Shown here one piece after another: positions 12,674 to 15,350 of a DNA stretch of 64,000 nucleotides. Both the position numbers and the translations under genes were made by a program. This DNA comes from Lentisphaerota bacterium (GTDB taxonomy: Bacteria; Verrucomicrobiota; Lentisphaeria; Victivallales; Victivallaceae), in assembly GCA_015061745.1 (NCBI GenBank), contig SUWB01000003.1, positions 1 to 64,000 of the forward strand, in the 5' to 3' direction. Each line of letters begins with the position of its first letter. Position 1 is the stretch's first letter. The notes beneath the pieces were generated by a model that was not told the origin of the DNA, searched no databases, and saw nothing but the letters and a program-made list of their open reading frames with translations.

Positions 12674-12764
12674 TGTGACAAGAACATTTTTTCTTTCGTC
12701 TCTGATAGATCTAATAAATTCGACACGCTTTGCAAAAGTTTTAACAAATTTTGGAGTACGTACT

Positions 12765-13772
12765 GTGAGAATAAAGAGATTTACATTGATCGAACTTCCG
12801 GTAAGCAAAACTTGTCAAATATGCGGTTATGTTTTGCGAAAATTTGCCTCTTTCCTTAATATTTGCCATTGCAATTCTGCCAAATGCGGGATTGTCGGTT
12901 TTACAAATGCAAAAACGGCGATCCACCAAAAGTTTTTGACAAGGAAGGAGGGGGACCGGGGAAGGAAGGGAACCCTTTTTGAAAAAAGGTTCTCCCTTCC
13001 TTCCCCGGCTCCTTTCACCTTGATAGAACTTCTGGTGAAAAGATCACATCTCTGCTGTGATCGTGTTTATGGCAAAGAAGAAGGTCTTTCACCTGCCCAT
13101 AGGCAGGTGAAGCTGTACAGCTTCACCTTAATAGAGCTTCTTGTCGTTATTGCCATTATTGCCATTCTTGCGGCTATGCTGTTGCCGGCTTTGCAACAGG
13201 CCCGGGGACGGGCAAAAAGTACCCTATGCTTCAATAATCTGCGTGAACTCGGTCAGGCGTTCCACTTTTATGCAGATGACAACGATTCCTGGCTTCCGGC
13301 ATACAGAACTTATTGGAAACCTACGGAATATTTCTGGTATGCAGGCGGCAGCAATGGTCTGCTCTCTCCTTATATCGGTTCGTCCAGGATGGCTATCGGG
13401 TCTTATGGACACATCGACAACAACAAACTCAAAGCCGTAAGCCGCCACCGGCTCTCCTGTCCCGAACTCAACGGTTTTGCCCCTCTTGCTGCCGGAGCGG
13501 TTTATGTTTACGGTTACGGATGCAATATTGACATTTGCGATTCTACAAACCGCAAGATGACCCGTTATGTCAAGCCTGCCACGCTGGGATTAGTTGGAGA
13601 CATTCATTACACCAACCCCAAATGGTCCGCCGGCTCTGTTTCCTTTGCGTCCGGACGCGGACTCTTTTTGCGGCATAACAATATGGGAGCAGCTTTAATG
13701 TGTGCCGGAAATGTAGCTTTGTACAATCACGGTGATGCAGTCAAGAAAATCAGATATTATACCACAAAATAA
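12765..13772 (+). CDS. Type II secretion/type IV pilin-like prepilin with triplicated leader motif
   Basis: This 335-residue prepilin-type protein is of the large Lentisphaerota pseudopilin family. The GTG start at 12765 follows TTTGGAG by 8 bp; the open frame upstream has no pilin features. The cleavage/methylation motif FTLIELLV occurs three times in frame: 12780-12803 (FTLIELPV), 13014-13037 and 13122-13145. Only the last is followed by the hydrophobic helix [16 protein letters not shown] and a globular domain ([24 protein letters not shown]). The intervening 70 and 28 residues are encoded by palindrome-rich DNA. None of the copies has the usual Gly at -1. A matching prepilin peptidase is at 23816-24694. 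Function may be in cell-surface assembly or secretion; the substrate is unknown. Confidence 0.85.
12804..13013 (+). repeat. In-frame palindrome-rich insert 1 in the prepilin
   Basis: This 210-bp (70-codon) insert lies between the first and second FTLIELLV motifs. It contains CTTGTCAAA at 12811-12819 and its exact inverse TTTGACAAG at 12935-12943, then a near-perfect 53-bp palindrome at 12956-13008 with purine-rich arms (CCGGGGAAGGAAGGG and its complement). The encoded peptide is Cys- and Lys-rich and resembles no pilin domain. Confidence 0.75.
13038..13121 (+). repeat. In-frame palindrome-rich insert 2 in the prepilin
   Basis: This 84-bp (28-codon) insert lies between the second and third FTLIELLV motifs. 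It carries three stacked inverted repeats: GATCACA/TGTGATC (13042-13062), TTCACCTGCC/GGCAGGTGAA (13088-13111) and a perfect 22-bp palindrome at 13106-13127 that runs into the third motif. The motif DNA itself acts like a duplicated target site. Confidence 0.8.
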
Positions 13773-13860: not shown

Positions 13861-13908
13861 ATTTTCCGCACAAGCCGTTTTCAGGGCAAATGCGGAAAAT
13901 TTTTTTTA
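13861..13908 (+). terminator. Terminator after the prepilin gene
   Basis: ATTTTCCGCA (13861-13870) pairs with TGCGGAAAAT (13891-13900), followed by a T-run. It lies 88 bp past the prepilin stop, and an ATG inside it (13890) is therefore not a gene start. Confidence 0.8.
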
Positions 13909-13915
13909 TACGCAC

Positions 13916-13944
13916 TTGCATTTTCATCATTGCAGCAGTATGGT
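13916..13944 (+). promoter_or_regulatory. Possible promoter of the GH39-like gene
   Basis: TTGCAT (13916-13921), 17 bp, TATGGT (13939-13944). The -10 is weaker than in the other promoters here. Confidence 0.45.
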
Positions 13945-13988
13945 ATATCCAGAATGCTTTTACGCTAAAAAATAAGGAATTTCAAATT

Positions 13989-15350
13989 ATGGGCATCGTC
14001 AATATCAAATGGCAGACCAAAGAGGCCGCCGGCAAGATCCGCAAACTCAACGGCGGAAATCTTGCCCCCTGTATCGCCGGAGAAATGGCTGGACGCAATA
14101 TCCGCAAAAGTTTCAAAGAACTGAATCTGGCTTTCACCCGCCTCCACGATGCGCCTCTGGATAATGCAAACTGTCCTCTGGTGGATATCCACTGCATTTT
14201 CCCTCTTTTTCATCTTGACGCCAATGATCCCCGGAACTACTGTTTCAAACATACTGACGACTATCTGCACAACTGTATCGTAGATGCGGAAACGCCTGTT
14301 TTCTGGCGTCTGGGGGAATCCATTGACCATACAGTCAACAAATACTTTATCGAACCTCCCGCCGATGTGGACAAATGGATCGACATTGCCTCCAACATCA
14401 TCCGTCACTATACAGAGGGGCTGTGGGACGGATTTCACTATGACATCAAATACTGGGAAATCTGGAACGAACCTGAATGCGGCGGCAACACCCGCCTTGA
14501 TCCCAATGCCAAAAATCTGATGTGGCTGGGAACTGAAGATGAATTCTTTGCATTCTTTGCCAAAGTTGCCAAAGAGTTGAAAAAACGTTTCCCTCATTTG
14601 AAATTCGGAGGTCCCGCCCATTGCGGCTGGAGCGACTTCCGCAGTGAACCCTTCCTTGAAAAGTGCGCTGCTGAAAAAGTCCCCTTGGATTTCTATTCCT
14701 ATCACTGCTACTTCAACGATCCCTTCGGCTGGATCCTTGAAACTCCCGGTCTGGCACGGAAAAAACTGGATGAACTGGGTTACACCGAAACCGAGATCCA
14801 CCTTAACGAGTGGCACTATTTCCCCGGTGACTGGCACCGGCTGCGGAACGATGCGGTCTACAAGCAGAATATGTACAACAATGAAATGAAGGGACTCGAC
14901 TCTGCCGCCGCCCTCACCACCGTTATGGCACGCTGGCAGGACACCCCTCTGGACTACGGAGCCTACTACACCTGTACCACTTCGGCCTGGGGCTGTTATG
15001 TTACAGGCAGCAATAAACCGACGCCTTCATATTTCGGACTCAAAGCCTTTGGTGATATCGTCCGTTACCCTGAACGGACAAGTTGTACTGCCGACCACGA
15101 AAAAGTGACTGTCCTTGCCGGTAAAGATGCTGAGGGAAATATGGAAATGCTGGTTTCAGCGTTCAACACGGGAGACAACTCTTTTGTCATTACTCTTGAC
15201 AAAGAGATCGAGCCTGCAAAGTGTCAGGTGCTGCTGCTGGATGAAAACCACAATCTTTCTCCCTGTCTCGAAGCCGTCATTACGGCTGACACCATTACCT
15301 TTGCCAATGAATCCAATTCCGCGGTTGCTCTGATCAAGATCGCAAGATGA
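13989..15350 (+). CDS. GH39-like glycoside hydrolase
   Basis: This 453-residue TIM-barrel glycosidase resembles family 39 (beta-xylosidase or alpha-L-iduronidase type). The proposed acid/base is Glu in YWEIWNEPE and the proposed nucleophile is Glu in IHLNEWHYF, both placed as in retaining clan-A enzymes. A small C-terminal beta domain follows (VTVLAGKDAEGNMEMLVSAF). The start at ATG 13989 follows AAGGAA; a longer frame begins inside a terminator and was rejected. No signal peptide is seen from this start, so it may act on oligosaccharides in the cytoplasm. The next gene downstream is a sialidase-like protein. Confidence 0.78.
   Translation: MGIVNIKWQTKEAAGKIRKLNGGNLAPCIAGEMAGRNIRKSFKELNLAFTRLHDAPLDNANCPLVDIHCIFPLFHLDANDPRNYCFKHTDDYLHNCIVDAETPVFWRLGESIDHTVNKYFIEPPADVDKWIDIASNIIRHYTEGLWDGFHYDIKYWEIWNEPECGGNTRLDPNAKNLMWLGTEDEFFAFFAKVAKELKKRFPHLKFGGPAHCGWSDFRSEPFLEKCAAEKVPLDFYSYHCYFNDPFGWILETPGLARKKLDELGYTETEIHLNEWHYFPGDWHRLRNDAVYKQNMYNNEMKGLDSAAALTTVMARWQDTPLDYGAYYTCTTSAWGCYVTGSNKPTPSYFGLKAFGDIVRYPERTSCTADHEKVTVLAGKDAEGNMEMLVSAFNTGDNSFVITLDKEIEPAKCQVLLLDENHNLSPCLEAVITADTITFANESNSAVALIKIAR

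Follow-up and report, generated by a model that had tools for sequence, protein, structure and literature searches.

In this group of gut bacteria, many pilin genes carry short palindromic inserts, always in frame and at the same precise position close to the gene start, and the locus described here raises the question of how such inserts arrive there and what becomes of them. The window, a 64,000-nucleotide stretch from a Lentisphaerota bacterium, contains a prepilin-like gene with an extended leader in which the prepilin motif is encoded three times. A first-pass annotation of this DNA interpreted the intervening sequences as elements that insert in frame into prepilin leaders and restore the motif through duplication of their target. 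The analysis below makes it likely that the inserts are small, non-autonomous mobile elements that are joined to the gene at the motif, bring a motif of their own, and are removed together with the leader.

The window gene and its two inserts

The features of the gene and of its two inserts, A and B, are as follows.
12765..13772, + strand: prepilin-like gene with an extended leader (open frame; PF07963 and TIGR02532 matches)
12780..12800, + strand: original motif of the host gene, now FTLIELP, separated from the hydrophobic segment
12803..13036, + strand: insert A, 234 bp, which follows the GT at 12801-12802 and closes with a GT of its own at 13035-13036 (boundaries from multiple copies)
12805..12837, + strand: 5'-proximal hairpin of A, GCAAAAC/GTTTTGC (single-stranded DNA fold)
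12956..13008, no strand: large near-perfect palindrome of A (25-nt arms, 84% complementary), inverted relative to other copies
13014..13036, + strand: A-borne motif, FTLIELL followed by GT (all but two positions nearly constant in 40 copies)
13037..13144, + strand: insert B, 108 bp, its own motif included (37 B-type copies aligned from this genome and its relatives)
13042..13062, no strand: 5' hairpin of B, GATCACA/TGTGATC
13088..13111, no strand: 3' hairpin of B, TTCACCTGCC/GGCAGGTGAA
13105..13128, no strand: 24-bp perfect palindrome of B (12-nt arms, 100% complementary), extending into the beginning of the terminal motif
13122..13144, + strand: terminal motif, borne by B, with predicted prepilin cleavage directly ahead of the F at 13122 (profile matches)

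The presumed GTG start codon at 12765 is preceded by GGAG at 12753-12756. In profile searches, PF07963 was matched at residues 120-140 with 23.5 bits (cut-off, 21.2) and TIGR02532 with 20.6 bits (cut-off, 16.3). An N-terminal cleavage/methylation motif with its hydrophobic segment was thereby recognized at the last motif, which is the sole copy matched by these profiles and the only one followed by VIAIIAIL. The motif copies start 234 and 108 bp apart. The first-pass annotation had described FTLIELLV three times in one frame (12780, 13014 and 13122) with intervals of 210 and 84 bp; the positions, frame and intervals are correct, while the first copy actually reads FTLIELPV. The stacked palindromes that it had reported, one in A and two in B, are all present as listed above, and a perfect palindrome that it gave as 22 bp (13106-13127) extends to 24 bp.

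As single-stranded DNA, positions 12801-13036 fold with a z-score of -6.28, and none of 200 shuffled sequences reached so low a value. The central palindrome of A in the window is inverted: when reversed, it agrees with each of the 39 comparable copies at 45-53 of 53 bases, against 37-42 of 53 as it stands. This inversion alters the encoded peptide as well.

No clear orthologue of the window prepilin was found, the best matches being 41% over residues 1-186 in the window's own genome (G000) and 60% over 82 residues in G013. The gene that adjoins the prepilin (window 13890-15350) has DNA matches of 81-82% in G012, G013 and G043. Overall, matches to this downstream gene range from 77 to 82% (G012, G013, G043 and G040) with no prepilin within the flanks examined, and a different prepilin lies near the match in G022. 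Since the neighboring gene is matched without an adjacent prepilin, the window prepilin would have been gained, lost or moved, and the window gene itself therefore offers no empty site.

Insert families, junctions and empty sites

A 381-bp stretch of the window was used as the query against its own genome (3.10 Mb in 75 contigs), which was found to hold 41 near-full copies of A, 40 of them complete and one (L046) truncated by a contig end. All 40 complete copies are exactly 234 bp long and free of stop codons. The copies are 82-92% identical to the one in the window and are spread over many different pilins, with tandem copies in L017. All 41 lie in prepilin leaders, L046 being placed from its left side only because of the contig end. 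On the right, A is followed directly by the V-x-I-A of a prepilin in 36 of the 40 complete copies and by a further insert in the other four, which are also in prepilin frames.

Insert B follows the same layout, with the right-hand motif carried at the end of the element. Three near-full copies (at least 91% identity) occur in the window's own genome, and many are found in G012, G013, G022, G003 and G019. Two of the 37 copies (L134 and L143) were dropped from the alignment for their different length; of the remaining 35 rows, 27 share one identical right motif, six have variants of it, and two (L137 and L140) show other sequence in its place. Further inserts, which include small-hairpin arrays and likewise terminate in a motif, were grouped together as C. 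Inserts of all three groups, A, B and C, occupy the coding strand of prepilin genes, always at the one codon junction FTLIELL|V.

The genome of the window has 95 prepilin-like matches and 155 occurrences of a degenerate motif pattern, relative to none for the reversed control. Neighboring motif pairs at its loci are spaced by a multiple of three in 54 of 55 cases. These 54 spacings take 12 different lengths, with 234 bp accounting for 30 of them, and the lone exception (137 bp) spans Ns. Relatives add spacings of 84, 108, 168, 171, 174, 180 and 300 bp, again multiples of three. Motif repetition and in-frame insertion are far beyond chance. When 88 prepilin N-termini of this genome were scored by simple peptide patterns, 60 had A, B or C (45 one, 11 two and four three) and 28 had none, a ratio that is not an unbiased fraction, since loci were picked partly for matching A or the motif.

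At an E-value of 0.001, a query of A plus B matched 15 of 23 other genomes of the same genus, several of them only partially, and none of 16 genomes from other genera of the order. Peptides like that of A were found at 11 named loci, two in a sheep-colon and nine in a roe-deer-colon Lentisphaeria MAG. Twenty partial matches in relatives yielded no larger autonomous relative of A; those that could be read are short in-frame inserts of other types, and the rest are contig ends or single motifs. Three exact patterns, a single one per insert group, had no match in viral_contigs. Rfam returned 43 matches at E-values up to 1, all under the gathering score and nearly all of them microRNA models hitting the palindrome, and these were taken as chance.

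Several side observations concern individual loci. In G012, the two contigs with A (L105 on C12 and L106 on C133) are short and both end inside A; the pilin of L105 is 96% identical to that of L030 in G000, even though another gene is 81% identical, suggesting either recent transfer or misbinned contigs. Orthologous C inserts (L241-2297 and L108+2572) differ in their hairpin arrays, and the small hairpin units of C may come or go independently. Finally, hairpin arrays with TGCTTCAT spacers, as in some C inserts, also occur outside prepilins (L176:550-1000 on the minus strand and L177:1640-1900), directly downstream of what by eye appear to be tRNA genes. The ORF after the L176 array appears to resemble S23/four-helix-bundle proteins.

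The breadth of these families bears on the proposal that the long leader is ancestral and has been repeatedly lost. Inserts are indeed widespread in the genus. However, the copies of A in many different pilins at 82-92% identity to that of the window, the tandem copies of A, the motif borne by the elements and the different inserts held by neighboring genes all run against an ancestral leader domain, which is unsupported given the multi-copy families and the pairs of empty and filled sites described below, and which we regard as extremely improbable.

The junctions of A are informative as to which motif belongs to the gene and which to the insert. In the aligned copies, similarity begins and stops at GT. 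Immediately upstream, the 12 bases ahead of the left motif are poorly conserved, the commonest base occurring in 33-62% of genes. At none of nine variable positions do the left motifs of 40 genes with A differ from the motifs of 25 insert-free genes (P = 0.38-0.80), nor is there a gradient as the insert is approached. In the same 40 genes the right motif hardly varies, and host variation resumes at the first base past the right GT. Together, the host-like left motif and the near-invariant right motif imply that the element owns the downstream motif and the host the upstream one. Both junctions have GT alone in common, such that at most GT would have been duplicated, and these data favor joining at a fixed point. 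The view that the repeated motif is a duplicated target was consequently rejected for A and B, leaving a duplication of GT as possible, while the other part of that first-pass reading, namely in-frame elements in prepilin leaders, has held up, with palindrome-rich sequences of several families present there in many genes and genomes.

Empty and filled forms of the same site were sought in G043 and G012, two close relatives, by comparing 27 prepilins of G043 with 176 from elsewhere, along with six more G043 loci. Mature proteins were at least 88% identical in 11 pairs from the comparison of 27 with 176. In four of these the G043 site is empty and that of G012 filled, three are insert-free in both members, and four have inserts of different type or number or are located where a contig ends. 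The additional loci supplied a fifth empty/filled pair. In all five syntenic pairs both flanks align, at 85-99% identity, around inserts of 108 bp (L117, L158 and L108) or 147 bp (L190 and L107). In L117 and L190 no base separates the left motif from the empty allele, and the right motif differs by five and four bases, respectively. In L107 it is the right motif that equals the empty allele, the left differing by four bases, and in L158 (four and six differences) and L108 (three and two) neither motif does. These five pairs show that inserts were gained or lost between close species, a change whose direction no outgroup polarizes; the multi-copy families and the host-like left motif make gain the inferred direction. 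Sites such as L107, L158 and L108 suggest that prepilin exchange or later change also shapes these loci.

The first-pass annotation had held that the notion of a family of inserts would fall if they were confined to this gene or if orthologues had only the extended leader. Neither is the case, since inserts occur in many genes and in genomes across the genus, and syntenic insert-free orthologues exist for other inserted genes.

Between species, the pilin bodies of L067/L192, L075/L195, L185/L117 and L078/L119 are 62-85% identical. These alignments begin at or near the motif and upstream homology is undetectable, as if bodies and leaders had been reshuffled. Such pairs between G000 and G012 or G013 showed no synteny upstream and were for that reason not counted as empty sites.

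The main rival to mobile elements is homologous recombination through the motif, in which such recombination or gene conversion among some 95 prepilin paralogues would spread the inserts, the motif and the VIAIIAIL region supplying the homology, and no dedicated enzyme would be needed. Some orthologue junctions fit this explanation, including the host motif on the right in L107 and the mixed motifs of L158 and L108, as do the large number of prepilin-like genes, the similar pilin bodies that bear different leaders, and the absence from G000 and G012 of intact Y1 transposase, serine recombinase and reverse transcriptase genes. Exchange within the motif, however, should give hybrid motifs, whereas the left motif in the 40 genes with A is host-like to its last codon and host variation is back directly after the right GT. 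On balance, recombination is considered a real but rather unlikely source of the inserts.

The leader and its fate

Under the preferred reading of the inserts as mobile elements, the element unit would comprise a unique 5' part, palindromic hairpins, and prepilin-motif DNA of its own at the 3' end. It would be joined in frame, on the coding strand, at the GT of the valine codon in FTLIELL|V, leaving the host motif upstream while the motif of the element takes over ahead of the hydrophobic VIAIIAIL. The old start codon would still be used and a longer leader translated through the insert. Prepilin peptidase would then cut at the last motif, so that the insert goes with the leader and the mature pilin sequence is kept.

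Sequence variation among the copies is consistent with such a fate. The left motif is altered or lost in 10 of 40 genes with A (e.g., FTLIELP, FTLIERL and FTQIELL) and in 9 of 36 with B, and in every one of the 40 the right motif of A translates to FTLIELL. As upstream motifs decay and the terminal motif stays intact, the last copy is probably the one that is cut, with the insert leaving in the leader, and the finished pilin is probably unchanged by the inserts.

The peptide encoded by A evolves almost neutrally, with length and frame kept. Diversity at the three codon positions is 0.069, 0.060 and 0.063, and pN/pS is 0.73 (window copy and L046 excluded). Thirty-nine copies contain 118 distinct changes, of which 87 are non-synonymous, 31 synonymous and none a stop, compared with expectations of 82.7, 32.1 and 3.1, respectively. 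The freedom from stops is weak support for translation, given the small number expected (P = 0.04). The simplest reading of these patterns is that the leader is translated and then discarded.

Alternatively, the insert might be left untranslated, with an internal start yielding an ordinary short leader. As read from the sequence, the GTG at 13107 in B could serve as such a start, and near-neutral substitution in A also fits this view. A purely internal start, though, requires neither the frame kept in all 54 gap-free spacings nor that kept in the 40 complete copies of A, and in 36 of 40 genes with A a start accompanied by a Shine-Dalgarno-like sequence precedes the insert, by a loose rule applied with no control. 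An internal start is judged very improbable.

A further proposal is that the inserts are kept for a function of their own, for example as mRNA hairpins that regulate pilin expression or as a leader domain that steers export. Over 32 distinct rows of B, where counts are small and rows related, the 3' hairpin is paired in 99.4% of cells and the 24-bp palindrome in 98.8%, each with two compensatory pairs, and the 5' hairpin in 91.5% with no compensatory change. The upkeep of the 3' palindromes through compensatory changes fits a function, as does the presence of inserts in most of the prepilins scored. Against this stand the prepilins that lack A, B and C, the variable content of orthologues and the near-neutral peptide of A; the hairpins, moreover, may serve mobility instead. 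Retention for function appears improbable.

Proposed mobilization and known systems

If the inserts are indeed mobile elements, site-specific joining would be carried out by an enzyme acting in trans. No intact Y1 transposase was found in G000, G012, G022, G003 or G019, which are incomplete MAGs (completeness 72-92%), and G000 has two Y1 fragments of approximately 35 positions each. Serine recombinases were absent from the same five genomes and from G002. Reverse transcriptases were absent from those five and from G013, and present in 8 of 30 genomes. With no intact gene in G000, G012, G022, G003 or G019, an IS200/IS605 enzyme, a serine recombinase and a reverse transcriptase were each set aside as the mobilizer. 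The B-rich genome G013 has one Y1-type match over the cut-off and one serine-recombinase match, so the negative result for these enzymes is not uniform.

Taken as a whole, the comparison supports mobile elements through the multi-copy families, the fixed site, orientation and frame, the element-borne motif of A and B, the empty and filled orthologues, and the decay of upstream motifs. A more specific picture is offered tentatively and with some doubt. Here, several unrelated families of tiny elements within a single bacterial genus may share the motif coding sequence as an attachment site, enter it in one orientation, rebuild the motif out of their 3' ends, stack, and escape selection as the host peptidase removes them from each protein, with an unrecognized recombinase doing the joining; they would then amount to mobile DNA of a new type.

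The closest likeness is to the Rickettsia palindromic elements (RPEs), which are described as short and palindromic, lying in frame in coding genes and entering unrelated genes (PMC10969869). The elements described here share with them a size of approximately 100-230 bp, palindromic structure, the existence of several families, and an in-frame position within protein-coding genes. Insertion into many unrelated genes was not seen, the 41 copies of A all being in prepilin leaders. Going by that description, the present elements also differ in that the full copies examined occupy one gene family, one codon and a cleaved leader, and in that they carry the motif they interrupt, with several families of the same design. 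The Rickettsia comparison drawn in the first-pass annotation is a good analogy, but the present inserts differ in having one target, a motif of their own and a location within a cleaved leader.

In-frame fusions have likewise been reported for some MITEs (PMC10969869). The inserts resemble MITEs in being small, non-autonomous, dispersed and hairpin-forming. In the fold predicted for A, the 5' and 3' hairpins are separate and the two ends do not pair, and any target duplication is no longer than GT at A, L117 and L190. REP elements and the non-autonomous copies of IS200/IS605-type elements have hairpins near their ends and take one orientation relative to their target. The present inserts differ from them in that full copies lie inside genes and intact Y1 is missing from the five genomes named above. 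Integron gene cassettes combine directional insertion at one attachment site, stacking, and hairpin-forming sequence; here, by comparison, the attachment site is a coding sequence repeated in some 95 genes. No report of comparable inserts in pilin leaders was found in open-license PMC papers.

For members of this group, prepilin start-site and leader calls may be wrong, and the empty and filled sites make the hunt for the mobilizing enzyme concrete. The inserts also provide a natural series of leader lengths for testing how long and how arbitrary the leaders of type IV prepilins may be. Finally, the findings suggest that a genomic parasite can occupy dozens of genes while leaving their products unaltered, by targeting a signal in the part of the protein that is discarded and restoring that signal upon insertion.
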